In this document: positions 9,476-55,116 of the stretch, piece by piece
Layout of the letters: each line of letters opens with the position of its first letter
Numbering within the stretch: position 1 is the stretch's first letter
Source of the DNA: Trichocoleus desertorum ATA4-8-CV12
GTDB taxonomy: Bacteria > Cyanobacteriota > Cyanobacteriia > FACHB-46
DNA: 55,116 bases
Direction: 5' to 3'
Assembly: GCA_019358975.1 (NCBI GenBank)
Contig: JAHHIL010000036.1
Span: 1 to 55,116 of the forward strand
The notes under the pieces: model-generated
Told to the model about the DNA's origin: nothing
Database searches by the model: none
Seen by the model: only the letters and a program-made list of their open reading frames with translations
Made by a program: the position numbers and the translations under genes

Positions 9476-9499
9476 GGTTGGGTGGTGATTCACCCAGCC
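9476..9499 (+). terminator. Intrinsic terminator after the lipoprotein gene
   Basis: A hairpin with stem GGTTGGGTG / CACCCAGCC (9476-9484 with 9491-9499, one G-T wobble, 6-nt loop) is followed by TATTTACTTT. It sits 20 bp after the lipoprotein stop and separates it from the transporter gene. Confidence 0.6.
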
Positions 9500-9617
9500 T
9501 ATTTACTTTGCTTGAAGCACAACAAAACCATTTTCGTTGGATGGCACCTGTATCGCAATTAAGCGAACTGAGCTTGAGCCTGTGCTGAGCTAGATCCCCA
9601 TAGGAGTAGAGAGCAAG

Positions 9618-11020
9618 ATGAACAGTAATCAACAAATACAAACTGGTGATCCATCTACCGACAAACCACAACCGCAAGTGCCGCAACCACCTCAAGGGCG
9701 AGATTGGCTGAAATGGTTGGGGCCTAGCTTCCTCTGGATGCTGTCTGCCGCTGGCTCTGGTGAGTTACTCTTCACCCCCCGGATTGCGGCACTCTATGGC
9801 TATACCCTCTTATGGGCACTCCTAGCGGCAGTAGTTCTGAAATGGTTTATTAACCGTGAAGTTGGCAGGTTTACCGTTTGCACCGGTATTACGATTCTAG
9901 AAGGCTTTAAGCGGCTCCCTGGCCCCAAGAACTGGGCGATCTGGCTGATTTTAGTGCCTCAGTTTGTGGTGGCGATCGCCACTGTGGCGGGTATGGCAGG
10001 AGCCGCAGCAACCGCACTAATTTTGATGACTGGCGGCACCGCCCAACTCTGGACCGTAATCATCATTGTAGTCACAGCCGCGATCGTTTTTCTGGGGCAA
10101 TACGATGGCGTCGAAAAAGCTTCATCCTACATCGGCATCGGGCGTACCATAGCCGTGGTGGCTGCTGCCGTTTTTGTCTTTCCTAACCTGGGGCAACTAT
10201 CAGGCGGGCTAGTCCCTCAAATCCCTCAAGATGTCCAGTATCAGGAAATCCTGCCTTGGTTGGGGTTCATGCTAGCAGGGGCCGCTGGAATTATGTGGTA
10301 CTCCTACTGGATCGGTGCTAGAGGCTACGGTGCTGCCACCAACAAGCGTGAAGAACCCATTGACTTTAAGCAGCTCGATCGCGATCAACGAGAGCACTTG
10401 CAGGGATGGCTAAGCTTGATGACCTTCTCCAATACCCTAGCTGTAGTCGGAGCCTTATTAGCAGCCCTCTCGTTTCTGATTTTGGGAGCAGAACTGTTGC
10501 GTCCACAGGGCTTAGTACCCCAAGAAAACCAGATTGCAGAAACCTTAGGGAGCCTCTTAGGAGATCTTTGGGGCCTTTTGGCTTCTGGTTTATGGTCGCG
10601 ATCGTCTTCATCACCTTTTGCAGTACTACCATGTCTGTGCAAGACGGGTTCGGACGCATGTTTGCCGATGGAACACAAATTTTGCTGCAAGGGTTTGGGG
10701 TGCGGAGTAAGCGTTGGACCAACGAAAAATTCCTACGTAAATTCTTTATTGCTACCTTGTTGGCAGGACTCCCGATTGGCGTGTATCTGATCTTCGGCAA
10801 ACCTGTGGGGTTACTTCAAACCGCTGGAGCCATTGAAGCCTCTCATATCCCAGTCGTCACTGGGCTCACTTTATATCTCAACCACCAGATGCTACCGAAG
10901 AAACTACAGCCTAATCCCTTAAGCTTCTGGACAACTACTTTAGCAGGACTATTTTTTGCTGGATTTGCAGTGACTTATTTATTACAGCTCACTGGGCTGG
11001 TCGGCACAGGCGGAGCGTAG
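9618..11020 (+). pseudogene. Nramp-like divalent metal transporter, frameshifted
   Basis: The first frame (from 9618) encodes a Pro-rich cytosolic N-terminus and about seven membrane helices up to ...SLLGDLWG at about 10570. The remainder continues in another frame from about 10574 (PFGFWFMVAIVFITFCSTTM...) to 11020, giving about 467 residues if rejoined, a normal Nramp-family length with about 11 helices. One extra G in the G4 run at 10570-10573 would restore the frame exactly, so this is a single-base deletion or a sequencing error. The usual TM1 DPGN metal motif is replaced by GSGE (AAGSGELLFTPR), placing it in a divergent Nramp-related clade whose substrate is unclear. The neighbouring lipoprotein and regulators suggest metal handling. 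Confidence 0.8.
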
Positions 11021-14715: not shown

Positions 14716-15714
14716 ATGGTGCAAATAGGTTATCACGCCTCTCACGAACAATTTCCACCTAGTCAACTGCTGAAGTATGCCCAAATGGCAGAACAAGCAG
14801 GATTTACGCGCGTGCTTTCATCCGATCACTTTCATCCTTGGGGTGAGCAGCAGGGGCAAAGTGGATTTGCTTGGTCTTGGTTAGGCGCAGCCATGCAAGC
14901 AACACCCAGCGTCTCCTATCGAGTGGTCAATGCTCCCGGCGATCGCTATCATCCAGCGATCATCGCCCAAGCCGCCGCTACCCTCGCCGAAATGTTTCCG
15001 AATCGCTTTTGGCTGACTGTGGGGAGTGGTCAGGCACTCAACGAGCACATCACCGGAAATAAATGGCTAACCAAGCGCGATCGCAATACTCGGCTCAAAG
15101 AGTGCGTTGATATCATGCGGGCGTTATGGGCAGGGGAAACGGTAACCCATCATGGATTAGTTTGTGTGGAAGAAGCCAAACTTTATTCTCGCCCTGACAC
15201 CCCACCGCTGATCATTGGAGCAGCCATTACAGAAGCGACTGCCGAATGGTTGGGAAGTTGGGCAGATGGACTGATCACCATTTCACGCCCACCCGAAAAA
15301 CTAAAACGAGTTGTTGATGCTTTTCGACGCGGAGGTGGGGAAGGGAAGCCCATGATTTTGAAAGTTCAGCTCTCCTGCGATCGCACCGACGACATGGCTC
15401 GTCAAAAAGCCCATGAACAATGGCGCAACAATATCTTTAAGAATGTGTTGATGACGCAGCTACGAACACCAGAACAGTTTGACGCAGCAGGAGAATGTGT
15501 CACCCCAGACGAACTGAATGAACACGTCCGAATCTCAGCCGATCCCCAACAACAGATCGAGTGGCTACAGAAAGATATTGAATTAGGCTTCGATGAATTA
15601 ATTTTACATAACGTCAACCGGGAGCAGGAGCAATTCATTCAAGTCTTTGGAGAGAAGGTTCTGCCAGTACTAACAGCAGGTAGTGCATCAAATAGTAGTG
15701 GGATAAATGGCTAG
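14716..15714 (+). CDS. LLM-class flavin-dependent oxidoreductase (non-F420 type)
   Basis: The bacterial-luciferase-like TIM barrel of about 332 residues begins VQIGYHASHEQFPPSQLL, with SSDHFHPWGEQQGQSGFAWSWLGAA and FWLTVGSGQALNEHITG matching the subgroup known as probable non-F420 flavinoid oxidoreductases. It likely uses FMN. An ATG at 14716 (MVQIGY) fits the family start better than the one two codons earlier. It is the fourth gene of the HAD-GH13-DUF1206 operon, 26 bp after the DUF1206 fragment. The substrate is unknown; recurrent linkage with trehalose-synthase-like genes suggests carbohydrate or compatible-solute metabolism. Confidence 0.87.
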   Translation: MVQIGYHASHEQFPPSQLLKYAQMAEQAGFTRVLSSDHFHPWGEQQGQSGFAWSWLGAAMQATPSVSYRVVNAPGDRYHPAIIAQAAATLAEMFPNRFWLTVGSGQALNEHITGNKWLTKRDRNTRLKECVDIMRALWAGETVTHHGLVCVEEAKLYSRPDTPPLIIGAAITEATAEWLGSWADGLITISRPPEKLKRVVDAFRRGGGEGKPMILKVQLSCDRTDDMARQKAHEQWRNNIFKNVLMTQLRTPEQFDAAGECVTPDELNEHVRISADPQQQIEWLQKDIELGFDELILHNVNREQEQFIQVFGEKVLPVLTAGSASNSSGING

Positions 15715-15994
15715 GTCGTGCCAAGTTAAAGGACCTCACTACTGACGACTAATTCTTCAATCAACTCGTCCGTGTCTTTTCCCACTCGTGCCGCCAAAAT
15801 TAGTCCACTAGAATCAGCTAAACTGACGCCAATTCAGCAATCGCCAACTTCTAGCTGTTCTGGGAGGCACTGCTTCTGTTTTTTGGACTTTGAGCAACGC
15901 TATCAGGCGTTGATTGAGCAAGGTCTCAAAGACAATCCACCCCTGCCAACAGACCTGTTCTCCTACCTGAGTAGTTACCACACCGAGACGACAA
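15715..15994. other. Decayed sequence between the LLM gene and the ATPase fragment
   Basis: No intact gene is supported. On the minus strand a short frame (about 15730-15820) encodes SLADSSGLILAARVGKDTDE followed by LIEELV, which resembles a central piece of a transposase, but the match is from memory and weak. Another minus-strand frame (about 15815-16020) lacks recognisable motifs and could be the scrambled continuation of the ATPase. I read this as mixed gene and IS remnants. Confidence 0.3.
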
Positions 15995-16800
15995 TCCCTG
16001 AGTAAGGCGCTTAACAACATGGCTCACTTGTGCCTGGACAAAACCAGCTTTGCCAACGATCGCAATTTGATCACTGATTTTTCCAGTGATTCCTTGTCCG
16101 GCATTGTGCTTGACCGTTTACTGCGTCTACCCAAGTTAAATTCTGCTGATGAGCAAATTGGGCAATCGCCTCACCAATTGAATGTTCCGATAAACTCTCC
16201 AAAGCTGCGGCCACTTGTAGCAGTTGGTCAGTGGACGGTTGGGTTGCCATCACTTCAACGACCTGGAGCTTCCCAGTTGTTAGTGTTCCGGTTTTGTCAA
16301 AAGCGATCGCCCGCACTTGCCCAATCCATTCCAACTGTGCCCCGTTCTTGAACAAAATTCCATGTCGCGCACCGTTGGCAATTCCTGATAGCAGGGTCGG
16401 CATAATTGAAGCCATCAAGGCACAGGGCGACGCAACCACTAGAAAAATCAATGCCCGGTAAATCGTTTCTTCCCAGTTCCAACTCAACAGAAAGGGAGGT
16501 AACGTACCGAGCAAGATTCCGGAGATCACAATCACCTTGGCATAGCCACGTTCAAATCGTTCAATAAATTGCTGAGAGGGTGGTGCCTCGGTTTGAGCTT
16601 GCTGGACGAGACGAATCACTCGCTGAATTAAGCTACTTTCAGGCGGTTGGTGAATTTTGAGCCGTAATGCTCCATTGCCATTAATCGTGCCTGCAAAGAC
16701 CTCATCTCCGATTGTCTTCTCAACGGGAATCGATTCCCCTGTAATTGAAGCTTGATTCAACGTACTAAATCCTTCCATGACCAAACCATCGGTCGGTACC
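15995..16800 (-). pseudogene. P1B-4-type metal ATPase (CoaT-like), C-terminal half
   Basis: Reading leftward from GGTACC at 16795-16800, the frame gives VPTDGLVMEGFSTLNQASIT then GESIPVEK (actuator-domain TGE), the SPC metal-site motif in ASPCALMAS, and the phosphorylation motif DKTGTLT, then part of the nucleotide-binding domain. SPC (not CPC) indicates the P1B-4 subgroup, which in cyanobacteria includes the cobalt exporter CoaT. A frameshift near 16097 (one extra T) puts GQGITGKISDQIAIVGKAGF in another frame, and homology stops near 15995, so the hinge and last helices are lost. The missing N-terminal half is at 53149-53660: its last residues (KPGELVP) join exactly at the same GGTACC. Confidence 0.88.
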
Positions 16801-16950
16801 TGTTAGGCGACGATTAGATAGGCCCCGATGACAACTGCATAGGCCGCCTCTGAGATTACTTTGTCGTTCTGCTTCTAGAGTGAGATCGCGCTCCAACAAG
16901 ACCCTCAAAGCAAAGACACTAGGACTGTCTACTAACACCAATAGAAACGC

Positions 16951-17007
16951 CTAGTGCCGGGTCCAATTAAATTTCAACAACTTCAACTCTACATGAAAGC
17001 TAAAGAC
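16951..17007 (-). pseudogene. C-terminal tail of the ISKra4-type transposase
   Basis: The frame ends with VFSFHVELKLLKFNWTRH and a stop at 16951. The copy near the right end of the window encodes the same tail (VFSFHVELKLLKFNWTGH), preceded there by different residues. The common sequence ends exactly after GCTAAAGAC in both copies, which marks where the IS1-like element or a deletion joins here. Only 19 residues remain, in frame with the upstream IS1-like transposase by chance. Confidence 0.5.
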
Positions 17008-17731
17008 AGCGCTGATAGCCGTAAACGGATGCTCCAGGTAAAACCACTCCACCCCCCTTTTTCCCTGAGACCCCTTGATTTTCATGGCGACTTCTAACCC
17101 TTGCCGCCAGACCTTACGGTGATGGTACGCCCGATGGACTTCTCCTGATTTGAGGTAAACACTGGCAAGTTTCCACAAAACCTTGCCATAGCGGCGTTCA
17201 CCATCTGTAAACCAACGGATGAACTGGGCTGGTTTTGCCCAATCCCAAGCGCTTTGAGTGCCTTGCTCAAACAGTGGAGTCTGCTTTTTGCCTGCCTGGG
17301 CTGCAACCCAATAGCGACTCTCTCGTTCAATGAAATGAATTGTCCACCCTTGACTCATTTCGGGGGGGAAGGTTCTCGCCAACACGAGTATATACTTCAT
17401 CCCCTTCGAGCGTCACATCTGCTCCGACGGGCGCAGGGGGTGACCATGCAGTAGCTTGCTGAGCCAGCCTTTGCTCCCAGCGCATGATGGTTGAGTGTGA
17501 CTTGCCAAGTGAGCGTCCAGTGGCACGAATGCCCAATCCTTCTGTGCGCACATTCAAAGCTGCACTCACAATCACAGACGATGTTCGGAGCCTCGACATC
17601 GGAGTGCCGCTTCGCTCGTTGAATTGTCGGTTGCAAGCCTTGCACAGATACTTCTGGACAACACTGTCATCTTGGCGCTTGGTTGTCCCATTTTTCACCA
17701 CCTTTTGGCTTTGGCAAGTTGGGCAGTTCAT
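17008..17731 (-). pseudogene. IS1-like transposase, frameshifted and 3'-truncated
   Basis: From the ATG at 17731 the protein starts MNCPTCQSQKVVKNGTTKRQ with a CxxC zinc block and continues through SHSTIMRWEQRLAQQ (HTH) and LEGDEVYTRVGENLPP. The frame then changes at a C7 run (complement of G7 at 17362-17368); with six C it would run on as SQGWTIHFIERESRYWV...FTDGERRYGKVLWKLASVYL to HPFTAIS, where homology stops at about 17010. The normal C-terminal third (RRRQNLYAK / NWVRPHW type) is missing. The element's other end is probably at 17788 (GGTAGTGGTCTG on the complement). Inactive. Confidence 0.72.
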
Positions 17732-17788
17732 GGATGCATCCTCAACGCTGCCTTTATTTGATCTCTCATTCTTCAGCAGACCACTACC

Positions 17789-18084
17789 GAAGTGAGGACT
17801 CAACTGGCGATAGGGCAGTACGGACAATTTCTTTGCTTGCTTTGAGGTAAGGTTTAGCTCTCCCAAGGTGCTTTTGAGTCTTCTGGGTTTACCTGCTTGC
17901 GTTCCTGTAACCGTCTGGATAAAAAACTCCCTATTTCTGGGCTAACATGAGCCTGAATCTGCTGCCACACTGTCATCTCAATTCCTTCTAGTGTTTTCAT
18001 CGCAGCTGGATCACTTTCGTTATACAGGATTTGTGCAATAGCTTGGAGGTGAGCTTTGAGCGCTTGTTCTTGTTCAGGAGTCAT
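17789..18084 (-). pseudogene. ISKra4-family transposase, N-terminal fragment
   Basis: The start MTPEQEQALKAHLQAIAQIL with LEGIEMTVWQQI and HVSPEIG is the standard opening of cyanobacterial ISKra4 transposases. At a T6 run (complement near 17922-17927) the frame is lost; one more T would give IGSFFIQTVTGTQAGKPRRL followed by KSTLGELNLTSKQAKKLSVL and PYRQLSPHF, all typical. Homology ends at about 17789, where the IS1-like element begins. About 98 of the usual 450-500 residues remain. Confidence 0.7.
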
Positions 18085-18352
18085 GACTTTGGACGAGAGT
18101 AGACTCTCTCATCCTCACTGATACCGTCTGGATTGACCAGTCATGCAGTTAACCTAAGCATTATTACTCATCGCAAAGCTGACATGCTCCCGGCTTAAGT
18201 TGCGTATTTTCCTCGAAGTTTCCTAAGACACTCAACAGAATAATAGCTATAGGAACTGTAGAAGCTCAAACGGTATTCCTCCCACGAGGAAGATTTGGGT
18301 TGATTTTTGCAGTTTTGCCGAATCATGAATCGAATACTGTTTGATGATCAAT

Positions 18353-23881: not shown

Positions 23882-26800
23882 CTAGTGAAATTGGGGAGAC
23901 GCGAGGAAACCACTACGGCTGAAGTAAGACAGATAGATATCAACTAACTGGTTCACTGAGGGGCAAGCGATCGCGCTGTTTCTTAACCCATGCAAGACAT
24001 GATGACAATCAAACCCCGATGCCCGGAGATCAGACTCAGATGGGTTAGATGGCTCTTGATCAACCTCTTCTTGATATAAGGTGATGAAGGGAGCTAGGGC
24101 ATTGTCTGAAGCACTGTCTGGAGTGGTTGCCAGAGACTGCATTAGGTGCTCTCGCCATTGCTCGTAAGGTAGTTTAGTCAGCGGGTAGCCCTTGGAGTAG
24201 AGCAACTCGAAGAATTCTACGCTAGAAATGGGCTGAGGATTAACCAGGTGAAAGGCTTGACCGATCGCCTCTGGTTGTTGGGAGAGATGCACGATCGCTT
24301 GACTGGCAAAATCGACAGGGACAAAGGCTTGCTGCTCATTGCCTAGATCAGGAAAGTAGCCCATCTGGATGCAGCCCTTAGTGAAGCTCGATTCAAAGTC
24401 TTGGGTGTTGGTGATCCCCGTTTGGCTCGATCCCGCGATCGCCCCTGCCCGAAAGACCGTGACAGGTAATCCCCTCGACTTCGCAATCCAGATTAACTTT
24501 TCAGCCACCCATTTGCTCTGGGCATAACCTAGGCTGAGACTAGCCTCGTAACCATCAATGTTGGTATCTTCTGCAATGACTGTGGCAGCGACATCAGAAC
24601 GCGCTCCGAAAATCGCCACGGTAGAAACATAATGGACGAATTTAGTTCTACTCTGGCAAGCTAGTTGCAAAATAGCTTGAGTGCCTAAAACGTTGGCGGC
24701 CTTGAGCTGAGAGTAAGGCTTCAAGAAATTTACATCTGCGCCATTGTGGTAAATCGCTTCAATTTGGTGAGCCAGTTGAGCAAAGGTTTCTGGGGCAAGA
24801 CCGAGCAACGGTTGAGCTAAATCACCTAAAACAGGGATAATCCGATGGCTCAAGTTGGGACTCCACAACTCATACTTCTCCAGAGCTTGCTGGATGCGTT
24901 GCAATCCCTGCTGTGGTTCCGAGGCTCGGACTAAGCAGTAAACATTCGCTTGAGTCTGCTGCAATAATTCATGTAGAAGGAAGGCTCCCAGAAACCCCGT
25001 GGCTCCCGTCAGCAGCACATGGCGTAACTCAGCAGCGGAGGTGACTGGAGTCGGGGGAGAGATTTCAGGTGGGAGAACCGCCTCTGCTGGTAAATCTACC
25101 GCAGCCGTTACGTGAGACAGATCTGCATGACGTAGCGCTTCAATTGCTGCCGCCAGCCCTGCGATCGTAGGTTGCTCAAACAGGCATCGGACTGGAAGTT
25201 TGACTTGCAACCTTTCCCGCGCTGCTAGCACTAACTGAGCGGCTAGGAGTGAGTTACCCCCTAGCTCAAAGAAGTTGTCATAGATGCTGAGTTCGGCAAT
25301 ATCCAGCGTTTTACTCCAGAGCGCTAGCAGTTTCTCCTCCGTGGCGGTGCGGGGCAGAGCGATCGCATCCTTGGTTGCTAAACGGCTTTGATCGGGGGCA
25401 GGTAAAGCGCGGCGATCAACTTTGCCATTGGCGGTTAAAGGTAGGCTGGGCAATAATAGGAAGCGATCGGGCACCATGTAGTCAGGCAGTTTGTGCTGGA
25501 GAAAAGCCCGCAGATTTTGGGTGATTGTGCGCTGCAGCGTCTTGAGGAATCCTTGCGTTTCTAGAAGTGACTCTAGAGTTTGGCGCATCAGGGTTTGCTG
25601 AGCGGGTGTCAAATCAAATTCAACCCCAATCTGATTAGCTTGCTGCCAAGCGATCGCCCCGTCTAACCACTGCTCCGCCAGGTGAGGCAACTGCAACCTC
25701 AAATGAATGCGTTGACCGATGACTGCGGTGATGGGAATGCCCGCTAGGCAAACTCCGTCCAGGGAGAGGTCTACAGTAGTCACCTCCAGTAGGCAAAAGT
25801 CAGGCAATTCGACTAAGCATTGACTCTGCACTGGCACGCGATCGGGTAGTAAATCGGTTGCGAGATAGGCGACGAGGCGCTGGTTGCCAGGGATATCTTC
25901 GCGGACCAGTACCACGGCTTCCCGAATGTCGGGATGTTGGCTCAAAGCAGACTCAATTTCACCTAACTCAATCCGAAAACCTCGAATTTTGACTTGGTGA
26001 TCGATGCGTCCCAGATATTCAATGTCTCCATTAGCTAAGCGGCGAGCTAAGTCACCTGATTTATACAGGCGGGCGGCAGAGTTAGAACTAAAGGGGTGAG
26101 CAATGAACCGTTCATGAGTCAAATCAGGACGGTTGAGGTAGCCTCTGGCTAAACCTGCGCCACCAATGTACATTTCTCCAGGTACACCGATTGGCACGGG
26201 TTGTTGTTGCTGATCGAGGATGTAGAGCTGCAAATCAGGGATCGGCTGACCGATGACACTGCCAGAGGCTCCCGTCAAGTCAGCGATCGCTAAGGGCCGA
26301 TAAGTCACATGTACAGTTGTTTCTGTGATGCCGTACATATTGACGAGCTGTGGTTGCTGATCGCCGTGGCGATCGAACCAGGGTTTCAAGCTTTGTATTT
26401 CTAGGGCTTCTCCTCCAAAGATCACCAGTCGCAAGGCCAATGGCTTGAGCACATCCAGCGATGCTTCTACTCGCATCAGTTGGCGGAAGGCTGAGGGCGT
26501 TTGGTTGAGCACTGTTACTTGCTCTGTGCAAAGGAGATCGTAAAAGGTATCGGGTGAGCGACTGATGTGATAGGGAACAACAACGACTCGACCGCCATAG
26601 AGCAACGCCCCCCAGAGTTCCCATACCGAGAAATCGAAGGCGTAGGAGTGAAAGAACGTCCAGACATCTCGTTCGGTGAAGTGAAACCAAGCTTGCGTAG
26701 CCTGGAAAAGACGCGCCACATTGGCATGGTTAATCAACACCCCTTTTGGTTTGCCTGTAGAACCGGAGGTGTAAATGATGTAAGCCAAATTGTCCGGTGT

Positions 26801-28651
26801 GGCTCCACTGGTAGGATTATCTTGACTTGCCTGGGCGATCGCTGGCTCCTGATCCAAGCATATAGTGTAAGCTTTGGGGGCGGAAATTCTGGACAGCAAG
26901 GATGTTTGAGTCAGTAAGACTGATACTTGAGCGTCTTCTAGGATGAAAGCCAACCGCGCTGCGGGATAGGTGGGATCAAGTGGCACATAGGCTCCTCCTG
27001 CTTTAAGAATGCCGAGGATACCTATGATCATGTCTAGGGAGCGATCGACACAGATCCCCACCAACGTTTCGGGTTGGACTCCTAATTTTTGGAGATAATG
27101 CCCCAGTTGATTCGCCCGTTGATTCAGGTCTTGGTACGTGAGGTGCTGGTGCTCAAAGCTGACTGCAATGGCATCAGGCGATCGCGCGACTTGCTGCTCG
27201 AACCACTGATGTAAGCAAACCTGTGCAGGATACTGCTGGTCATGCTGGTTCCACGCAGAGAACTGTTGTTGTTCTGTCTCAGTCAATAAAGGTAACTGAG
27301 AGAGCGGTTGCTCAGGCTGGGCAACAATTCCCGCCAGTAAAGTCTGGTAATGACCTGCCATCCGTGCGATCGTTGCGGCATCAAACAAGTCGCTACTGTA
27401 CTCGATCGCGATACTCAAGCCGTCGGCTGTTTCTTCTACCGCAAACGTGAGATCAAACTTGGCAGTGTGACTGGGGATATCCAACGCACTCAACAGTAAT
27501 TCAGAGTCGATGGTTGGGACCGTGGCATTTTGCAGCACAAACATCACTTGAAACAAGGGATTCTGGCTCAAGTTGCGCTCTGGATGCAGGGCTTCCACCA
27601 ACTGCTCAAACGGCAATTCCTGATGCTCATAGGCACCTAAGGTGACTTGCTGGACTCGTTTGAGCAAGGTACGAAAACTGGGGTTGCCAGAGAAATCGGT
27701 GCGGAGAACTAAGGTATTGACAAAGAAGCCAATCAGTCCTTCAATTTCAACGCGATCGCGATTGGCAATGGGAGAACCGACAATAATGTCTTCCTGTCCA
27801 CTGTACCGATGCAGCAAGGTTTTGAAGGTCGCTAACAACGTCATGAACAACGTTGCTCCTTCTCGCTGCGTTAAGGTTTTGAGGTCTGTGGTCAGGCGAT
27901 CGCTGATCGTAAAGGTATAAGTGTCTCCCCGAAAGCTTTGCACCGCTGGACGGGGGCGATCGGTTGGGAGTTGTAAGCTGGGCAGGTCACCGCTCAGTTG
28001 CTGGGTCCAGTAATTGAGGAGCGTGGCTTTCACCTCGCCTTGGAGCCAATCTTGCTGCCACTGAGCGAAGTCACCATACTGAATGGGTAGCTCTGGTAGT
28101 ACAGGAGTTTGACCTTGTGATAAAGTAGCATAAAAGGTCGATAACTCTTGAAACAACACATTAAACGACCACTGATCCGAAATGATGTGGTGCATGCTCA
28201 GCAGCAACAAGTTCTCGGTAGCAGAGAGTTGCAACAGCGTGGTTCGCATCAGGGGGCCACGACTGAGGTTGAAAGGATGTTGAGCGTCCTCCGTGGCTAA
28301 GCGCTGAATTTCAGTATCTTGCTCGGTGGTCTCTAAATGCTGCAAATCAATCCGGGATAGTTGCCAGTTGCTGACAGGAGAGATCACCTGCATAGGGTCT
28401 CCATCCACAATCTCGAATGTAGTTCGCAGGCTTTCATGGCGCTGCACAATTGCTTGGAAGCTGGCTGTTAAGGTGGCAATGTCTAAGGCTCCTTGCAGAC
28501 GTACCACAGCCGCCAAATTGTAGAGTGAGCTATTGGGCAATAACTGATCTAAAAACCACAAGCGTTGCTGGGCAGAAGAAGTCGGAAAAATCAGAACCTC
28601 TTCATCTAGCTGTGCCGGATCAACCTGAGCGCGATCGCCATCAAATGTCAT
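23882..28651 (-). CDS. NRPS, terminal module C-A(PilZ)-PCP-thioester reductase
   Basis: The protein has 1589 residues, starting at an ATG with AGGAG upstream. C domain (about 15-440; HHIISDQWS, so the usual Gly of HHxxxDG is Gln). A domain (about 465-1115): YTSGSTGKPKG about 629; the specificity residues I read as D-F-W-N-I-G-M-V-H match the threonine code. A PilZ-like domain (about 934-1017: DRVPVQ, VDLSLDG, IGVEFDL) is inserted between A8 (QVKIRGFRIELGE) and A9 (LPDYMVP). PCP: ELGGNSLLA (Ser about 1134). Thioester reductase of Lys2 type (about 1215-1589): TGATGFLG NADP site and YAQSK catalytic pair, releasing an aldehyde or alcohol. Starts 22 bp after the four-module gene and is its continuation. 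Confidence 0.92.
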   Translation of the reverse strand: MTFDGDRAQVDPAQLDEEVLIFPTSSAQQRLWFLDQLLPNSSLYNLAAVVRLQGALDIATLTASFQAIVQRHESLRTTFEIVDGDPMQVISPVSNWQLSRIDLQHLETTEQDTEIQRLATEDAQHPFNLSRGPLMRTTLLQLSATENLLLLSMHHIISDQWSFNVLFQELSTFYATLSQGQTPVLPELPIQYGDFAQWQQDWLQGEVKATLLNYWTQQLSGDLPSLQLPTDRPRPAVQSFRGDTYTFTISDRLTTDLKTLTQREGATLFMTLLATFKTLLHRYSGQEDIIVGSPIANRDRVEIEGLIGFFVNTLVLRTDFSGNPSFRTLLKRVQQVTLGAYEHQELPFEQLVEALHPERNLSQNPLFQVMFVLQNATVPTIDSELLLSALDIPSHTAKFDLTFAVEETADGLSIAIEYSSDLFDAATIARMAGHYQTLLAGIVAQPEQPLSQLPLLTETEQQQFSAWNQHDQQYPAQVCLHQWFEQQVARSPDAIAVSFEHQHLTYQDLNQRANQLGHYLQKLGVQPETLVGICVDRSLDMIIGILGILKAGGAYVPLDPTYPAARLAFILEDAQVSVLLTQTSLLSRISAPKAYTICLDQEPAIAQASQDNPTSGATPDNLAYIIYTSGSTGKPKGVLINHANVARLFQATQAWFHFTERDVWTFFHSYAFDFSVWELWGALLYGGRVVVVPYHISRSPDTFYDLLCTEQVTVLNQTPSAFRQLMRVEASLDVLKPLALRLVIFGGEALEIQSLKPWFDRHGDQQPQLVNMYGITETTVHVTYRPLAIADLTGASGSVIGQPIPDLQLYILDQQQQPVPIGVPGEMYIGGAGLARGYLNRPDLTHERFIAHPFSSNSAARLYKSGDLARRLANGDIEYLGRIDHQVKIRGFRIELGEIESALSQHPDIREAVVLVREDIPGNQRLVAYLATDLLPDRVPVQSQCLVELPDFCLLEVTTVDLSLDGVCLAGIPITAVIGQRIHLRLQLPHLAEQWLDGAIAWQQANQIGVEFDLTPAQQTLMRQTLESLLETQGFLKTLQRTITQNLRAFLQHKLPDYMVPDRFLLLPSLPLTANGKVDRRALPAPDQSRLATKDAIALPRTATEEKLLALWSKTLDIAELSIYDNFFELGGNSLLAAQLVLAARERLQVKLPVRCLFEQPTIAGLAAAIEALRHADLSHVTAAVDLPAEAVLPPEISPPTPVTSAAELRHVLLTGATGFLGAFLLHELLQQTQANVYCLVRASEPQQGLQRIQQALEKYELWSPNLSHRIIPVLGDLAQPLLGLAPETFAQLAHQIEAIYHNGADVNFLKPYSQLKAANVLGTQAILQLACQSRTKFVHYVSTVAIFGARSDVAATVIAEDTNIDGYEASLSLGYAQSKWVAEKLIWIAKSRGLPVTVFRAGAIAGSSQTGITNTQDFESSFTKGCIQMGYFPDLGNEQQAFVPVDFASQAIVHLSQQPEAIGQAFHLVNPQPISSVEFFELLYSKGYPLTKLPYEQWREHLMQSLATTPDSASDNALAPFITLYQEEVDQEPSNPSESDLRASGFDCHHVLHGLRNSAIACPSVNQLVDIYLSYFSRSGFLASPQFH
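25600..25845 (-). other. PilZ-like domain inserted in the Thr adenylation domain
   Basis: About 82 residues between A8 and A9 show the PilZ pattern: RVPV strand start, VDLSLDG (the D/N-x-S-x-x-G motif), a GQRIHLRLQLP strand, and G-AIAW...IGVEF at the end. The first Arg of the RxxxR c-di-GMP motif is replaced (LLPDR, with Leu at the first position). It is followed by a helical linker (TLQRTITQNLRAFL) that is also conserved in the other copy at 32425-32672. Confidence 0.8.
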
Positions 28652-28673: not shown

Positions 28674-31600
28674 TTATGAATTCAAACCATTGTTGAGAGC
28701 AGACCGTTTCACCCGCCGAGCATCGCGAGAGACCGCACCAATCGGACTAGAGCGCAGTGCAGGACTACTTTTCTGCAAATGCTCGATGGCAGTCGCTAAT
28801 GCCGCGATCGTGGGTGACTCAAACAAATGACGCAAGGAGATTTCTACCTGGAAGCTGCTGCGCGATCGCGAGATCACCTGCGTTGCTAGTAAGGAATGTC
28901 CTCCTAAGGCTAAGAAATTGTCATGAACGCCAACTTGCGGCAGTCCTAGAACTTCTTGCCAAATGCCTGCTAGCGTTACCTCAACGGGAGTGCGAGGAGC
29001 TACAAAACTATCTTTGAGTTCCAAGGCGATCGGTTCAGGATTGGGTAGGGCTTGGCGATCGAGCTTGCCATTGGCTGTAACTGGGAATGTTTCTAACCAC
29101 ACGAAGGCAGCCGGAATCATGTATTCAGGCAAGTGTTGTTGCAGGAAGGCTTGTAGCTCCTGAGTTTCAGGCATTAGTGCTTGGGCCGCAATTAGGTAGG
29201 CTACGAGTTGCTTGTCTCCTGATGTCGTTTCTCGATCGATCGCGATCGCCTCTCGTACAGCGGCATGCTGAGCTAAGACGGCTGCGATTTCCCCTAACTC
29301 AATCCGGAAGCCACGAATTTTGACTTGGTGGTCAATGCGGCCCAAATACTCGATGCTGCCATCGGGGCGATAGCGAGCTAAGTCTCCAGTTTTGTAGAGG
29401 AGTGAGGAGTAAGGAGTAAGGGGTGAGGGGTAAGGATCAGGAATAAATCGCTCTTGAGTGAGTTCTGGGCGGTTGAGGTAACCTCTAGCTACGTTGACAC
29501 CACCGATGTAAAGCTCTCCGACTACGCCGATCGGCACTGGTTGGAGATGTTGATCCAAGAGATGAATTTGGGTATTAGCGATCGGGCGACCAATCGGCAC
29601 TACCGTTTGATTCGCTTCCGGTTGGCAGTGCCAGAAGGTCACATCCACTGCCGCTTCTGTGGGCCCATAGAGATTATGGAGCTGGGCTGGCAAGCGAGTG
29701 AAAAAGCGCTCTTGCAGTTCTAGGGGTAAAGCTTCACCGCTGCACATCACTTGGCGGAGACAACCACATTGCTCTAAACCTGATTCTTCTAGAAACACCC
29801 GCAGCATTGAGGGGACAAAGTGCAACGTAGTAATCTGCTGTTGGGCAATCAATTCCACTAAGTAAGTCGGGTCTTTGTGTCCCTCCGGTCGAGCCACTAC
29901 TAACTTCGCTCCCGTCATCAGCGGCCAGAAGAATTCCCAAACCGAGACATCAAAGCTAAAGGGAGTCTTTTGCAAGACGCGATCGCGAGCAGTTAACTGA
30001 TAGGCATCCTGCATCCACAGGAGACGGTTACAGATGCCGCGATGGGTATTCATGGCTCCTTTGGGTTTGCCTGTAGAGCCAGAGGTGTAGATTACATAGG
30101 CCAGGTTCTCGGCGGTGACTCCGCTATCAGGATTATGGTCAGTTTCCTGTTCTATGTTCGGCCAATCGCGATCGAGACAGACCAGAGTTGCTTGATCCTG
30201 TGGGAGGCGATCGAGTAAGTGAGATTGAGTCAGCAGCACAGGCACTTGAGCATCAGCCAGCATGAAGGCTAATCGATCTGGGGGATATCCTGGATCAAAT
30301 GGCACATAAGCGCCGCCCGCTTTCAAGATCCCTAAAAGCCCAATCACCATTTCTAGGGAGCGATCGACGCAGATGCCCACCAAAGTTTCTGGTTTAACTT
30401 GGAGTTTTTGCAGATAGTGAGCCAGTTGATTCGCTCTAGCGTTTAGCTCTCGATAGGTAAGCGATTGGTCTGCAAAACTAACGGCAATTGCATCGGGGGT
30501 GCGCTCTACTTGAGCCTGAATCCACTGATGCAAACAGATATCTAGGGGACAGTCTACTTGCGTCTGATTCCAAGCCTGAATCTGTTGTTGCTCACTAGCA
30601 GTTAGGATAGATAGCTCTGAAAGCGGTTTGGTTGGCTCAGCCACAATTCCCTCTAACAGGGTTTGGAAGTGCCCCATCATGCGGGTAATGGTCGGAGCAT
30701 CAAATAAGTCGGTGCTGTATTCAAATTCTCCGACTAGCCCATCCGTGGTTTCGTGAAACTCCAACGTTAGATCGCAGCGGGCCATGCCATTATGAACATC
30801 CATGCGGCTGAGGGTCCAACCTGACTCCACTTTTGGCATCGCTGGATCGAGCAACAACATGACTTGATAGAGCGGATTTTGACCTAAGTTGCGCTGCGAT
30901 CGCAACTCTGCAACCAACTGGTCAAAGGGCACCTCACGGTGAGCGTAGGCAGATAACGTGACTTCTCGGACCCGCTGCAATAGATCCCGGAAACTCGGAT
31001 TACCGGAGAGATCCGTTCGCAGGACGAGGAAATTCACGAAGAAGCCAATCAACGGTTTGAGTTCCGGGCGATCGGGTTCTGCGGCGATCATGCCCACCGG
31101 AATATCCGTTTGTCCCGAATATCGATGCAGCAAGGTTTTGAATGCTGCTTGCAAGGTCATAAACAGCGTCACTCCCTCGCGTCGGGATAGCGCTTTGAGC
31201 TGTTCGGTCAAAGTCTTGGAAAGAGTGAGTTCTTGCCAATGACCCGCAAAGGATTGGTTGGCAGGACGAGGGCGATCGCTGGGCAACTGCAAGGTGGGCA
31301 AGTTTGCTAGTTGCTGCTTCCAGTAGGTCAAATGCGGTTCGAGGATCTGCGGTTTTAGCCACTGCCGCTGCCAAGCTGCAAAGTCAGCATATTGAATCGG
31401 TAACTCTGGCAAGGGAGAAGGTTTTCTGGCACAAAACGCCTTGTAGAGAACTTCTAGTTCCTTCAAGAAATTTACCAAGGACAGCCCATCATAGATGATG
31501 TGGTGCAGTACTAAACAGAGGCGATAATCGGTTTCGTCCATCCGGATCAGGTAGGGGCGTAGCAGCAAATCAGCCGCTAAGTCAAAGGGCCGCTGTACTT

Positions 31601-34600
31601 CTACGCTGAGCCGCTGTAAAGCTTCAGATTCGCGCTCGGTTGCGGCTAGCGATCGCAGATCTAACCTGGGTAGCTGCACCGTTCTCGCTTCATGAATCAC
31701 TTGCACAGGCAAACCTTCATTCAACACAAAGTTGGTGCGCCAAGCTTCATGACGGCGAATGATTTCATTCAAGGCTTGTTCTAATGCCGTGGGGTTGAGC
31801 AGACCAGGCAATTGAAAGGCGATCAAGTAATTGTAAGACGGCAGTTCAGTTTGAACCTGACTCAGCAACCACATTTGCTGCTGCGGAAAAGATAGTGGCA
31901 AGGGTTGATTTCGAGCCACAGGTAAGATCGCTGGAGTTGGCTCTCCGGAGGGATGTAGGCGATCGCTCTCTAAACTTTGCGCTAAAGTTGTGATCGTGGG
32001 AAACTCAAATAGGTTGCGGAGGGGTAACTCCACCTGAAGGGCACTACGAATTCGAGAGATGATCTGAGTGGCTAAGAGAGAATGTCCGCCTAGTTCAAAG
32101 AAATTGTCGTGAATGCCGACTTGCTCTAACCCTAAGACTTCTCCCCAAATCCCTACCAAGATTTCTTCAGTGAGGGTTCGGGGTGTGTCGGTAGATTCTA
32201 TTGAGGTTACCAGCTCACTAGCAGCGAGGGCACGGCGATCGACCTTGCCATTGGGAGTGAGAGGGAGGGCACTCAAAGGCATAAAAGTGGAGGGCACCAT
32301 ATAATCTGGGAGTTTCTGCTTCAAGAAACGCCGTAGGCTCTCGGTGATGGTGCGTTGTAACACCTTCAGGAGGCCCTGATTTTGTAGTAGATGCTCCACA
32401 CTGCTTTGAAGGAGAAGTTGTTCTGAAGGCGTCAAGTTAAACTGAATGCCCGCGCGATCGCCCCGACACCAAGCCACAGTTCCCTCTAAGTACACCAACT
32501 CGGCTGTGACAGGTAGATGTAGCTTGGCTCGAACTTGCTGTTCCGGTTGCCAGTGAGCAGGCGCCCCGATTACACCCAATCCACCGAGGGAGAGGTCTTC
32601 TGTCAAAAGTTCAACCATGCTGTTGGCTGATTCTACCCAACACTTGACCTCCATCGGGACGCGATCGGGGATGAGTTTAGACACGACATAGGCGATCAAG
32701 CGTTTATCGTTAGGGCTTTGTTCTTGAATGAGTACTACTGCTTCCTTCACGTCTGGGTGTTGGGTTAGCGTGGCCTCAATTTCACCAATTTCAATCCGGA
32801 AGCCGCGCAGCTTCACCTGCTGGTCAATCCGTCCCAAATATTCCAGACTGCCATCTGGTAAATAACGCGCTAGATCTCCTGTTCTATAAAGGCGATCGCC
32901 AGGTATCCTACTGAACGGATTAGGGATAAACCGCTCGGCTGTCAAGTCAGGACGATTGAGATATCCTCTCGCTAAGCCTGTACCGCCAATATAGATTTCT
33001 CCAGGAATGCCAATGGGTACAGGTTGTAACTGAGCATCCAATAAATAAATTTGGCTATTGGTGATGGGCTGACCAATCGGCGGTTTTTGACTTTCATCTT
33101 GGCATGGGGCCACCGTGACACAGACAGTCGCTTCTGTGGGGCCATAGGCATTAAAAAAGCGTCGTCCAGGTGCCCACTGTGCTACTAGCTGAGGGGGGCA
33201 AGGCTCTCCCCCGACAATCAGAGTTTCTAGGGCTGGGAGTTCCTGAAATGGCAGAGCCGCAAGCACTGATACGGGAAAAGCAACGGTAGTAATGGATCGC
33301 TCTTGCAGCACTTGGAGCAGTTCTCTTCCTGGCAAAAGCGTATCTGCTGTTTCTAAACAGAGCGTTGCCCCAGCGCAAAGTGTGGTAAAGATATCGGAAA
33401 CCGAGACATCGAAGCTAAAGGAGGCAAACTGTAGAACTCGGCTATCCTGGCGGATCTGAAACCGAGGAATTAAATCCGCGACTAAATTGCAAAGTCCTGC
33501 ATGTTGTAACAAGACTCCTTTAGGTTTGCCTGTAGAGCCAGAGGTGTAGATCACATAGGCTAGATTGTTGGCGCTGGCTCCACTGACTGGATTGGTGATG
33601 GCTTGAGGAGATGTGTTAGCTGCGATCGCGCCCCATTCAGTATCCAAGCAAATAACCTGGGCTTGATGGGATGGCAGGGATGGCACTAAGTGAGATTGGG
33701 TCAGTAATACGGGTGCCTGGGTATCCTCCAGCATAAAGCTCAGACGCTCTGCGGGATATTTGGGATCTAAAGGTACATAAGCTCCCCCCGCTTTCAGAAT
33801 GCCAAGGATACCCACAATCATCTCGAAGGAGCGATCGACGCAGATGCCAACCAGAACTTCCGGGCCAACTTCCAGCGTTCTGAGGTAATGCGCTAATTGG
33901 TTTGATCGCTCGTTTAACTCTTGGTAGGTCAGGGATTGACCCGCAAAGATCAGGGCGATCGCCTCTGGGGTTTGCTCTGCTTTGGCTTCAAACCATTGAT
34001 AAATTGTCTGATCAGAGGGATAAGCCGCCTGCGTATGGTTCCACTCCACCAATTGTTGCTGTTCGCGGGGGGTTAATAGGGGTAGTTGAGCGATTGACTG
34101 CTGTGTATTAGCAATAATCCCTGTCAGCAACGTCTCGAAATGTCCCGTAAGGCGAGCGATCGTGCTGGTATCAAATAGATCTGTGTTGTATTCCCAAATT
34201 CCCACTAACCCCCGTTCGGTTTCGTCTAAGGAGAGGGTCAAGTCAAACTTAGCGGTGCCACTATCCACCGCTAACGGGGTCAGAGTCAGGCCAGGGAGTT
34301 CCAATTCTGAGGCAGGAACATTTTGCAGCACAAACATCACTTGAAACAGGGGCGTATAAGCCAAATTCCGCGCAGGCTGGAGAGCTTCTACCAATTGCTC
34401 AAAGGGAACATCTTGATGCGCGTAAGCCCCCAAAGCGACTTCTCGGACTCGGTTCAGCAATTGCTGAAAACTGGGATTGCCAGAGAGATCCGTTCGCAGC
34501 ACTAACGTATTGACGAAGAAGCCAATCAAATCTTCTACTTCAGCTTGCTGACGATTGGCGATCGGAGATCCCACAACAATGTCTAGCTGTCCACTGTAGC

Positions 34601-37600
34601 GATAGAGCAACGTCTGAAATGCCGCCAATAGAGTCATAAACAGGGTTGCGCCTTCCTGCTGGCTCAATGCTTGCAACGCCTTCATTAATTCCAGTGGCAG
34701 CGTAAAAGATTGAGTGGCACCGCACAGACTTTGTTTCAGGGGACGGGGGCGATCGCTGGGTAAATTCAAAACATCCGGCAGGCTAGCGAGCTGTTGCTTC
34801 CAATAGGCAAGCTGACTCTCCAGAACATCTCCTTGAAGCCAATCACGTTGCCAATGAGCAAAGTCTGCATATTGGATGGACAGTTGTGGTAGGGATACAG
34901 ATTGCTCGGCGGCAAACGCTTCGTATAGTGTGGCTAGCTCTCGCACCAACACACCAATAGACCAGGCATCGGAAATAATATGATGCATGGTGAGCAGTAG
35001 AATATGTTCCTGTTCGCTCAAGCGCCAGAGCTGACAGCGCAATAGGGACGGCTCAGCTAGGTGGAATGGCTGTTGGGCTGCGGCGGCAATTTCCTGTTGA
35101 GCTTGGACTTCTCGCTCGGTTGCTGGCAGGAGGGTGAGGTCTGCGATCGCCAATGACATATTCAAATCAGGAGTAATCTTTTGGGTCGGTTGCCCATCCA
35201 CCACAATAAAAGAGGTGCGTAAACTCTCATGGCGTTGCCCAATCTCGTTTAAGCTCTGCTGTAGCGCCGACAGATTGAGATTACCTGTGAGCCGAACTGC
35301 TTGCGAGATATTGTAGAAGGGGCTATTGGGAATCAGTTGATCCAGAAACCACAAGCGTTGTTGGGCAAAGGAAAGTGGCAACGCTTGATCACGGGAAATG
35401 GAGGGAATGACAGCAGGCTGTAGGATCTGGGTTTCCTGATGGGTCGCAGCGATCCAGTCGGCGAGGGAAGCAATCGTGGGCGCGCTAAATAGCGATCGCA
35501 GCGGCAACTCCACTTGTAAGTGCTGTCGTACCCGTGAGATTACCTGGGTTCCTAGGAGAGAATGTCCGCCCAACTCAAAGAAGTTATCGGTGATTCCGAC
35601 TCGCGCCAAACCCAATACTTCGGCCCAGATCCCCGCCAAGGTCACTTCCAAAGCAGTTCGAGGCGCAACAAATTCTCTAACATCTATTTTGGTTAGATCA
35701 GGAATCGGCAATGCCCGTCGATCGACCTTGCCACTGGGTGTGAAAGGGAGAGATTCCAAGAGAACGAAGGCAGTAGGCAGCATGTAAGCGGGTAGTTTCG
35801 CTTGCAAAAACGAGCGGAGTTGTAGCGTGGAGACTGGATCGCTAGTGGCTTGAGGTACCACATAAGCCACCAAATATTTCTGCCCTGCTGAGTCTTCGCG
35901 ATCGCTCACAACCGCCTCTTGGACCGCAGGATGTTGATGCAAAGCTGCCTCAATTTCTCCCAACTCAATCCGGAACCCCCGAATCTTCACCTGTTGATCA
36001 ATGCGTCCCAGATATTCCAAGTTGCCATCGGGTCGATAGCGCACCAAGTCTCCGGTTTTGTAGAGCTTGGCTCCAGGGCGATCGCTAAATGGATGCGCTA
36101 CAAACTTTTCGGCTGTTAGTTCTGAACGATTTAGGTAACCCCTGGCTAAACCTGCTCCACCGAGATACAGTTCTCCTGCAACGCCGATAGGAACGAGTTG
36201 TTGGTGGCGATCGAGCACGTAGGTTTCGATTTGTGGCAGGGCTTGACCGATTGGTACGATCTGTGGAATTGGGTGCGATGCAGAGAGATCACAAGTTGTG
36301 GCGACAACCGTTGATTCTGTAGGGCCGTAGGTGTTGACCAAACGAACCTGTGATCCTACCCATTGCTGCCATTGAGCAACTCGTGCGGGTAATGCTTTTT
36401 CGCCACCAATAATAACTAAACGGAGATGGCTGGGTAGTGGGATTTGAGTCTCTGTTGCAGCGACAATTTCATGCCAGTAAGCAGTGGGCAAACTGACGAG
36501 AGTTAATTGCCATTGCTCACAGGTTTGCAGAAAGGTAGAAACAGATTCCAGCATCCACTCGGTACGGAGCATCAGCGTGGCTCCGACACAGAGACAGGGA
36601 TAGATCTCCTCAACACTGGCATCAAAGCTGATCGAAGCAAACTGCAACACGCGATCGCTCTGCTGCACCTCATAGGTGGCGATCGCAGCTTGGGTATAGT
36701 TGACCAGCGATCGATGCTCGATCATTACCCCTTTGGGCTTGCCAGTGGAGCCAGAGGTGTAGACGACATAGGCCAAATTATGACTCGTGGCCTGACTCAC
36801 TAAATTCTCTGAGCTGTGCTGAGCGATGTGCGACCAGTCTTGATCTAGGCAGACCACCTGAGCTTGGTGCGGTGGTAGTACAGATAGTAAGTTGGCTTGA
36901 GTGAGCAACACAGATACTTGCGAATCCTCTAGCATCCAAGCTAGGCGCTCCGAAGGATAAGCAGGATCGAGCGGCACATAAGCTCCTCCCGCTTTCAGGA
37001 TGCTGAGCAACCCAATGATCATCTCCAAAGAGCGATCGCAACATAGCCCTACCAAAGTATCTGGTTTGACATTCAGAGTTCTGAGATAGTGAGCCAGTTG
37101 ATTGGCCCGACTATTTAGTTCTTGATAGGTAAGCTGTTGTCCCCCAAAGATAACGGCGATCGCCTCTGGTGTGCGTTTGACTTGTGCTTCAAAATGCTCA
37201 TGAATACAGGTCGAGATTGATTCTGAGCGAACTGGATGCTGCCATTGCTTCAAGAGCAGGTGTTGTTCTTGAGAACTCAGTAAGGGCAAAGCAGTGATCG
37301 ATCGCGTTGGATCTGCGACAACTCCCTCCAGCAAAATCTGAAAGTGCTCAACCATACGAGCGATCGTGCTGGCCTCAAACAAATCTGTATTGTATTCCCA
37401 GAAACCAACTAATTCTGTTTCTGTTTGCTCCCAATATAGGCTCAAATCGAGCTTAGCTGTGCCTGTATCTAGGCTCTGATGCAGCGGCGCGATCGCCCAT
37501 CCCAATTCCTGTTTAGGTGTAGGTGGCTCCAAGACAAACAGAACTTGAAAGGGAGAGTTTTGGCTGGAATGCTGCGGTTGCAACTGCTTCAGTAAAGACT

Positions 37601-40541: not shown

Positions 40542-40864
40542 AAGTCTGCTTAGGGGTGGGTTACTCGGTGGGTGAATGAATGCTTGTAGCTTTGTAACCG
40601 TGATGGGGGCAACTGTTGAGGTAAAACAGGAGCGTCTACAGATGCTTAGGGTGACTCTCTGAGCAGGGCAAGCCAGAAGCGACAAACCTGACAGGGCAGG
40701 TGCATCTGTGTAAAACACATCAAGTGGATGTAGTGTTCCCGACCAGCCAGCCGATGCCACAAATTGCAAAGAAAAACTTAACTTAGCTTTTACCGAAATA
40801 TTGAGCGAATTTGGGCACTTTAGAGGCAAACCTGCTTATATCAGTCCTTGCTACCTGAGCTTCT
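40542..40864. promoter_or_regulatory. Divergent promoter region, NRPS operon and ABC exporter
   Basis: This 323-bp interval lies between the leftward NRPS start and the rightward ABC-transporter start. An open minus-strand frame continues through it, but its residues do not resemble NRPS or any family I know, so I treat it as leader. I see no clear sigma-70 hexamers. A small palindrome TGTGTAAAACACA (40705-40717) is the only evident symmetric element. Shared location suggests co-regulation of synthesis and export. Confidence 0.4.
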
Positions 40865-52841: not shown

Positions 52842-53148
52842 GTCTCAAAACTTTTTCGAGGTGCCCTCAAGCTGTAATTGCTAATTTCTTAAACCAATTA
52901 TTGTCAGAAAATGTTTGTAAACAGATGTAAAGGAGCAAGGATTCAGGCCATAAAATGAGCAATATCTAAGGAACCAGCCTCTAGGAGCGAAATCATGAGT
53001 CAACGCTACTATGACAGTGATCTTAGAGATGAGGAATGGCAACGAACGAAGAATCAGCGGAGATAGAAATCTAAAACTGCTTAACAACTTTTTACAAACA
53101 CTTTCTTAAGGTTTAGGCTGAGAGGGTATTGAACTGATGTCTTGAAAC
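52842..53148. promoter_or_regulatory. Intergenic region with TGTAAA direct repeat and a tiny ORF
   Basis: At 52914-52932 the sequence TTTGTAAAC-AGA-TGTAAAG has two TGTAAA half-sites 10 bp apart (52916-52921 and 52926-52931). It is nearly identical to 5044-5062 upstream of the multicopper oxidase. A further inverted TTTACAAAC lies at 53091-53099. These lie 50-240 bp upstream of the metal-ATPase fragment at 53149 and suggest a shared metal-responsive regulator (inference). Confidence 0.5.
52995..53066 (+). CDS. Possible 23-residue peptide
   Basis: An ATG at 52995 is preceded by AGGAG at 8-bp spacing and opens a frame MSQRYYDSDLRDEEWQRTKN (then QRR and TAG at 53064). The product is strongly charged. 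The ribosome site is good, but length and lack of recognisable family leave it doubtful; it may be the head of a lost gene (DLRDEEW recalls IS5-type transposase starts). Confidence 0.3.
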   Translation: MSQRYYDSDLRDEEWQRTKNQRR

Positions 53149-53660
53149 ATGAGTGCTGCTACCCCTTCTACCTCTCGCTTCTCAAGCCTTCTCAAGGAAC
53201 ACCCTGATGTTGTGGCAGCGATCGCCTGCGCGGTTCTGGTTTTCCTGGGCTGGCAAATGCTCAATTTCGGTTGGATTGGAGTTGCCCTTTTCATCCTGAC
53301 AGCTGCCTATGTGATTGGCGGTTTTGAGAGTGCCCGTGAAGGCTTAACAACTCTGTTTGAAGACAAAGAGCTCGACGTAGACCTACTGATGATAGTGGCT
53401 GCGTTGGGAGCTGCCAGTTTAGGACTCTGGCGGCAGGAGTATTACTTGATTGTGGATGGGGCGGTCCTCATCTTGATCTTTGCCATTAGTGGGGCATTAG
53501 AAGGGTACGCCATGCAGCGAACCGAGCGAAGTATTCAGGGCTTAATGAGCTTAACCGCTGATACAGCACGAGTGATTCGTCATGGGCAGGAACGAGCCAT
53601 CCCGATTTCTGAGCTAAAGATTGGTGATCAAGTCTTGGTCAAGCCAGGAGAACTGGTACC
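53149..53660 (+). pseudogene. P1B-4-type metal ATPase (CoaT-like), N-terminal half
   Basis: About 170 codons encode a short cytosolic start without an HMA domain, membrane helices 1-4 (AAIACAVLVFLGWQML, GVALFILTAAYVIGG, LLMIVAALGAASLG, YYLIVDGAVLILIFAISGA) and the beginning of the actuator domain (LKIGDQVLVKPGELVP). Homology ends exactly in the GGTACC at 53655-53660; the next ten codons (VGRQLNRPR) come from the adjoining mobile-element end. The continuation (TDGLVMEGFSTLNQASITGE) is at 16800 on the opposite strand. Rejoining the halves at GGTACC gives the standard P1B sequence with no lost residue. Confidence 0.88.
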
Positions 53661-53781
53661 TGTTGGACGACAATTAAATAGACCCCGATGACAACTGCAT
53701 AGACCGCTCGTGAGATCGCTATTTCAGCTCCTGTTCTAGAACGGGATCGCGTCAAATTAGGACCCTAAAGAAAAGACACTA

Positions 53782-54992
53782 GTGGTCAGTCAATTATTAA
53801 TTGACGGGTAAAGGCGATGTAACTTCACTCTGGCATCTGCTGTGGTAAATCGCCAATCAATCCAGGTCTTCTCTTGATTGCGCTGCTCCTGCCAGGCTTC
53901 TACTTCTGTCTTTAATAGGCTGAGATCGCCAATCCGACGATCTAAACATTGGCGGCTCAAAACGCTCAGTTCAATTTCAGCCATGTTTAACCAACTTCCA
54001 TGCTTCGGCATCGGACAAAACTCTAAATGACTGAGAATCCGTTGAGCTTCCGCAGGCTCAAAGCCTTTGTACAACGAAGCTGGACAATGAGTATTGAGGT
54101 TATCTTGTACCACGGTAATTTTAATGGCCTCGGGATAGTCCTCATCGACCAATGTTTTCAGCAAACGGGCATAATCAATCGCGGTTCGCCGTTCCGTCAC
54201 TTCGACTCGTCGCCATCCGATAATCGGCTCACAAATCATAAACAAATTCGCGGTGCCATTGCGTTCATACTCGTAGTCAACTCGTTCGGGTTGACCGGGC
54301 TGAGCTGGAATGGGCCTGACAGTTTCTGGGACTAACTGTTTGGTCGCCTCATCAATGCAAACTACCGGAAAGGCTGAATGATAGGAACTTTGATACACCT
54401 CCAACACCGCCTCCATCCGCCAAACAAATTCAGCACTTTGTTCCGGTGGAATCACCCAACATTCTTGCTTCCAAGGTTGCAGTTCGTTTTTTTAAAACTT
54501 GTCGCACACACTCATGGCTGAGTCGTTCTACATAACCGAGTTCAACCATTTGGTCCGCTAACAATCGGACTGTCCACCGTCCTCTGCCAGAAGGAGCCTC
54601 GCTGCAACGCAAGGCAACCAAATGAGCCTCTAAGTCGCCTGTTAATTTGGGTTTTCGCCCGCCTCCTGGACGAACCTTTATGGCCGCTTCCATGCCCTCT
54701 TCGACAAAGCGTTGACGGACTCGCTCAATTGTTCTGATGCTCACATCCAGAGCTTCTTTGATGTCTGAGTCCCGCCAGCTTCCATTTGGCTGATGGCAGT
54801 CTGCTTTCAGCAGAATCCGAGCATGAGTGATCTGATAAGCCGCATGTTTGCCAGTGGTTGTAAACTGCTCCAGATGCTGCCGTTCTATGTCAGTGAGACG
54901 CACAACGTATTTCTTGGGCATTGTCTTGGTGATTCCAATCAACTAGCTCTATCTTGCCCCAGAAACCCGTCAAAATTTTATTGACTGACCAC
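53782..54992 (-). mobile_element. IS630-family insertion sequence, 1211 bp
   Basis: Terminal inverted repeats begin GTGGTCAGTCAAT at 53782 and, on the complement, at 54992. The element is flanked by TA on both sides (53780-53781 and 54993-54994), the target duplication of IS630/Tc1-type elements. The empty site is visible in the homologous copy at 16801-17007 (GACACTAGGACT), which proves insertion into the ISKra4-type end. Confidence 0.93.
53790..54921 (-). pseudogene. IS630 transposase in two frames
   Basis: From the ATG at 54921 (MPKKYVVRLTDIERQHLEQF) the first frame gives the HTH region (DIKEALDVSIRTIERVRQRF, GGGRKPKLT) up to VRQVLKK. The second frame gives the DDE catalytic part: FPVVCIDEATKQL (first Asp), VVQDNLNTHCPASL (second Asp) and SWLNMAEIELSVL (Glu), ending WRFTTADARVKLHRLYP. 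The switch is at an A7 run (complement of T7 at 54487-54493); six A would give LKNELQPWKQECWVIPPEQS in one frame. A +1 programmed shift, a real mutation or a homopolymer error are all possible. Otherwise the element looks recent and intact. Confidence 0.85.
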
Positions 54993-55116
54993 TAGGACTG
55001 TCTACTAATAGCCATAGAGACGCCTAGTGCCCGGTCCAATTAAATTTCAACAACTTCAACTCTACATGAAAGCTAAAGACTCCGGCTGTGCTCAGAGCAC
55101 AGCTGCGGCCAAAGCG

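Follow-up and report, generated by a model that had tools for sequence, protein, structure and literature searches.

The window analysed here spans contig C36 in full (55,116 bp), one of the 90 contigs of a 6.06-Mb cyanobacterial assembly. It contains two pieces of one gene for a P1B-type metal ATPase, located 37 kb apart. The N-terminal piece (53149..53660, plus strand, approximately 171 aa) matches PF00122 and, partially, TIGR01525 and TIGR01512. It shares 77-82% DNA identity with the intact genes at L034, L035, L083 and L009, relative to which ATPase homology extends upstream as far as 53106. Its frame reads rightwards from 53149 to ...VKPGELVP and then enters foreign sequence. The second piece (16015..16800, minus strand) also matches PF00122 and aligns at the DNA level with the intact relatives. 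Its frame, read leftwards from 16799, begins VPTDGLVMEGFSTLNQASITGES and stays open for 242 residues before reaching a stop at 16071. The first piece matches positions 1-39 of the PF00122 (E1-E2 ATPase) model and the second positions 37-181, continuing where the first ends. An earlier note on this DNA had proposed that joining the pieces restores the family sequence GELVP-TDGL. This is borne out by the intact relatives, which read GELVPTDGL without a break, and by the second piece, which reads (V)PTDGLVMEGF....

The same note had described the pieces as the N- and C-terminal halves of one ATPase. While they do belong to the same gene, the so-called C-half is incomplete and corresponds to the middle of the protein: its frame is lost at 16071 and its homology to intact relatives ends near 16015, and therefore more than one third of the ~640-residue protein is absent. 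For comparison, we collected 51 loci encoding relatives of the ATPase from genome contigs, the closest with 92% protein identity. The intact CoaT/ZntA-like P1B ATPases of cyanobacteria are about 640 aa in length and match TIGR01525/TIGR01512. P1B-4 ATPases, the subtype named in the earlier note, are marked by an SPC motif, an HEG(G/S)T motif, and the lack of an N-terminal metal-binding domain; the intact relatives have SPC and HEGST. In contrast, the window copy is not only split but also frameshifted and truncated; its C-piece retains SPC, but the HEG region has been lost. The gene is a decayed pseudogene. In the earlier note, an intact, identical ATPase elsewhere in the genome was named as evidence against the split, and no second copy is found in the assembly. 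The ATPase is also absent from the two genomes of the same genus.

Both pieces end in GGTACC, as previously claimed. The window contains seven GGTACC sites, of which those at 53655..53660 (N-piece) and 16795..16800 (C-piece) form the ends of the two pieces. When aligned to the intact gene at L034, the N-piece covers 9487-10005 and the C-piece 10000-10772, giving an overlap of 6 bp. The overlap is likewise 6 bp on L009 and L035, and 5 bp on L083. The overlapping bases read GGTGCC in the relatives inspected and GGTACC in the window. Such an overlap is the pattern expected of a 6-bp target-site duplication, and the alignments to intact genes thus lend support to the duplication proposed in the earlier note.

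Each gene piece is followed directly by the left end of an insertion sequence of the IS21 family (istA/istB). At the N-piece, the element (53661..55116, plus strand) begins with the 24-nt tip TGTTGGACGACAATTAAATAGACC, continues into the start of istA, is interrupted by an IS630-family element, and runs off the contig. It is close to C69:1-162 and is 93% identical to G001:C49 over 127 bp. At the C-piece lies a second, different left end (16801..17006, plus strand), which is 86% identical to G001:C49 and is cut just past the istA start codon. The halves of the gene are inverted relative to each other because the same end of the element lies outward of each half in the same orientation. The two left ends align from their first base, with 77% identity over the outer 129 bp and 95% over the 91 bp that follow. 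Of this alignment, the final 48 bp are identical and include the istA start ATGAAAGCTAAAGAC (MKAKDSGCAQ). Judging from this divergence, the two ends represent distinct copies of IS21.

Assignment to IS21 is based on several features. Elements of this family have terminal inverted repeats made up of repeated units, with tips that begin TG or TA, and this pattern is present here, as is a short direct target duplication (GGTACC). Both window copies can be aligned through the 24-nt tip and the inner repeat with C69, G141, G241, G281, and G304, in agreement with a position of GGTACC directly outside the element. While the window copies themselves hold only the start of istA, the same left end leads into IstA and IstB in G126:C278 (NF033546, 222 bits; NF038214, 261 bits; both above the cut-offs) and likewise in G001:C49. 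IS21-family target duplications span 4-8 bp. Neither window copy is complete, and their 6-bp duplication differs from the 5 bp of IS5376 (PMC10122671) and the 7-8 bp of Paracoccus elements (PMC3281130). Right ends of the TGTGAAATGTCAATTACATAGACC type occur among IS21-type copies, and several contigs of this genome terminate in IS21-type right ends, but none was recovered adjoining either window copy. In searches of this genome, the IS21 interior gave no match beyond the element ends; some copies of this multi-copy element are therefore unrepresented in the assembly.

The earlier note had proposed that each half is followed by the same end of an ISKra4-type element. Both sites do share an IS end, in matching orientation, though it belongs to IS21 rather than ISKra4 and to two diverged copies. 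We rejected ISKra4 as the shared end, given that the 53.66-kb site comprises an IS21 start with a nested IS630 and that an ISKra4-like fragment occurs at the 16.8-kb site only after position 17793. A single element with a long inverted terminal repeat, which would provide two similar ends, was also rejected: both sides extend as far as the istA start codon.

Other mobile elements are present at both sites. An IS630-family element (53783..54991, minus strand; NF033545) is nested in the IS21 left end beside the N-piece, with CTAG on both flanks, and IS21 sequence resumes after it until the contig ends. A copy with about 90% identity is found in G001:C33. At the other site, the IS21 end stops after 206 bp and is fused at 17006/17007 to an IS1-family transposase fragment (17007..17787, minus strand), which is 86% identical to G002:C1:93852-94629 and matches NF050000 and, below its cut-off, NF033558. 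Because this fragment lacks approximately 283 bp of the element of its G002 relative on the side touching IS21, the fusion is a rearrangement scar rather than a clean insertion. Next is a fragment (17793..18193, minus strand) with an ISKra4-like transposase start (MTPEQEQALKAHLQAIAQILY...) running leftward from 18084, about 1 kb further in and at this site only. It is 86% identical to G000:C15 and 76% identical to four places in G002. This fragment has no NCBIfam match, and its family was assigned by eye from the translation. Beyond it, from 18341, lies a large kinase gene. Remnants of multi-copy repeats also occur on the far sides of the gene pieces. One, at 15679..15885, lies between the ATPase piece and an LLM oxidoreductase gene; it resembles an IS1-type end and is 81-85% identical to several places in G001 and G002. 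The other, at 52907..53107, immediately precedes the N-piece and also has multiple matches in G001 and G002. Each gene piece thus has the remains of mobile elements on either side.

IS630 is also a source of fragmentation in this assembly, where it is present in multiple copies. At 13 places in G000 (C87, C61, C32, C20, C85, C30, C24, C29, C65, C72, C34, C3, C76), about 120 bp of either IS630 end is found, 88-89% identical to 53783-54991; the places inspected are contig ends.

Since many contigs are interrupted at relatives of IS21 and IS630, and C36 itself ends in IS21, the halves could conceivably have been joined to their present neighbors in the assembly only, as the earlier note had allowed. 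The overlaps between contigs make such a chimera highly improbable. C83, C73, and C66 all terminate in one IS21-type right end, with exactly 127 terminal bases common to C83 and C66. Contigs ending in the multi-copy IS630 have 123 bases in common, and the stretch of C36 from 54990 onward measures 127 bp. As contig ends run approximately 127 bp into repeats, the assembler probably used a word size of about 127. The two junction regions have no exact repeat in common longer than 48 bp, which is far below this size, and a chimera driven by repeats is therefore unlikely. In addition, the window is free of Ns, and its two left ends and nested IS630 are distinct from other copies. One collapsed IS21 copy cannot give rise to both junctions because the left ends come from different copies. 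The split gene thus probably reflects real biology rather than an assembly fault.

The presence of two left ends at one target also constrains how the gene was interrupted. Since a single insertion yields a left end and a right end, two left ends call for two copies; the divergence of those found here upholds the earlier argument that a single IS insertion cannot account for the locus. It might still be proposed that a single IS21 insertion was followed by recombination between terminal repeats, or by gene conversion, that placed a left end on both flanks. Inversion between IS terminal repeats has been documented in Wolbachia (PMC3004938). However, an inversion of this kind swaps the ends and still leaves one of each, and both sides in the window reach the istA start codon while differing by 23% over their outer part. 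We consider this explanation barely credible.

Our preferred explanation, to which we assign a probability of approximately 0.7, is that paired IS21 DNA with outward-facing left ends disrupted the gene at GGTACC, and that the insertion sequences were eroded and the flanks separated later. The heavy-metal P-type ATPase gene would have been interrupted by IS21-family DNA of which both outer boundaries were left ends. These boundaries would derive from two diverged copies in opposite orientation, which either moved together or inserted successively, with a 6-bp duplication of the target. Subsequent IS activity may then have eroded the copies, with IS630 entering one and the other being cut and fused to the IS1-type fragment. 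Finally, a rearrangement would have moved the flanks apart to leave the halves in their present positions and opposite orientation. The paired arrangement, the order of these events, and the type of rearrangement are the parts that we infer. The paired element itself is not seen in the window, where the 53.66-kb copy leaves the contig and the 16.8-kb copy is truncated.

Two lines of evidence are in keeping with paired insertion. In vitro, the IstA of IS5376 also acts on a pair of left ends, with roughly half the efficiency (PMC10122671). Furthermore, an IS21 copy with an inverted second istA at its right end is found in G001 and G304. The locus resembles a composite transposon with inverted flanking IS copies: two copies point the same end outward, and there is a single target duplication. 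It differs in that the interior and any cargo are missing from the assembly, and movement as a unit is putative.

The same visible junctions, and the divergence of the two left ends, would also be produced by two independent IS21 insertions at one site, with no mobile pair ever moving as a unit. According to this alternative, the first element came to abut the N-piece with its left end, and a second then inserted, in the opposite orientation, into the neighboring GGTACC copy. No common target is found in the flanks of other copies, however, and IS5376 has no strong target preference (PMC10122671). For the same 6 bp to be hit twice, an extra assumption is therefore needed, and we regard independent insertion as unlikely, albeit the most serious of the competing explanations. 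A preference of IS21 for inserting at IS21 ends could serve as that assumption.

Tail-to-tail arrangements of diverged IS21 neighbors are present in at least two cyanobacterial genomes: at L032:2345-2875 (G001:C49) and L108:3426-4969 (G304:C1), an IS21-type right end is followed by an inverted second IS21-type istA. No clean flanking duplication surrounds these neighbors in G001 or G304, and none is visible around a complete IS21 copy in G304 that was used as a yardstick. Tentatively, and with the odds against it, we suggest that tail-to-tail pairs of diverged IS21 copies in cyanobacteria may move as one unit through their two left ends, forming composites of unlike copies. A further arrangement was observed on a 6-kb contig (L111; G126:C278), where an ISL3-like transposase gene, identified by eye, lies between two oppositely oriented IS21 left-end fragments.

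With respect to the separation of the flanks, the earlier note had combined a pair of outward left ends with a later inversion. The pair remains the best available idea, whereas a single 37-kb inversion is undemonstrated because the gene order around both halves is reshuffled. The genes at 6.0-15.7 kb, which lie left of the C-piece, are collinear with G001 C51, those to the left of the N-piece lie on G001 C76 at 170 kb, and other genes from between the halves are on G001 C71 or elsewhere on C76 (57 and 88 kb). Relative to the nearest available genome, the region thus appears heavily reshuffled, and one inversion is only the simplest description of what took place. The unrearranged gene order was found in none of the genomes examined. 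Dating the rearrangement from gene order in G001 and G002 was attempted and abandoned, given that both lack the ATPase and that the neighboring genes are on different contigs or far apart.

We consider the locus a real case of multi-step gene disruption and rearrangement driven by insertion sequences, and a further example of a familiar type of event. It clearly documents, in a natural setting, the breakage, erosion, and dispersal of one gene by a succession of IS families. It is also a possible natural instance of the two-left-end IS21 transposition known in vitro (PMC10122671). The split ATPase does not open a long-standing question.

The surroundings of the gene were also compared with those of its intact relatives. 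Neither LLM nor histidine-kinase neighbors are found beside the ATPase in the intact relatives. The only neighbor common to three of these relatives is a CopA-type gene, located within approximately 3-8 kb of the intact ATPase in L034, L049, and L083. The window has a CopA-type ATPase at 46539-48797, 4.4 kb from the N-piece, to which the CopA relatives at those loci are 66-86% identical. This suggests that the ATPase and CopA belong to a common metal-resistance neighborhood. Two very long frames of 1589 and 4051 aa are encoded on the minus strand at 23882-28651 and 28674-40829, respectively. Sequence resembling these frames is found on G001:C71 next to comparable ABC-transporter and kinase genes, but there the kinase lies on the opposite side. 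In addition, a single frame at 49739-51403 combines a response-regulator receiver, a thioredoxin-/glutaredoxin-like stretch, and a thioredoxin-reductase-like domain.
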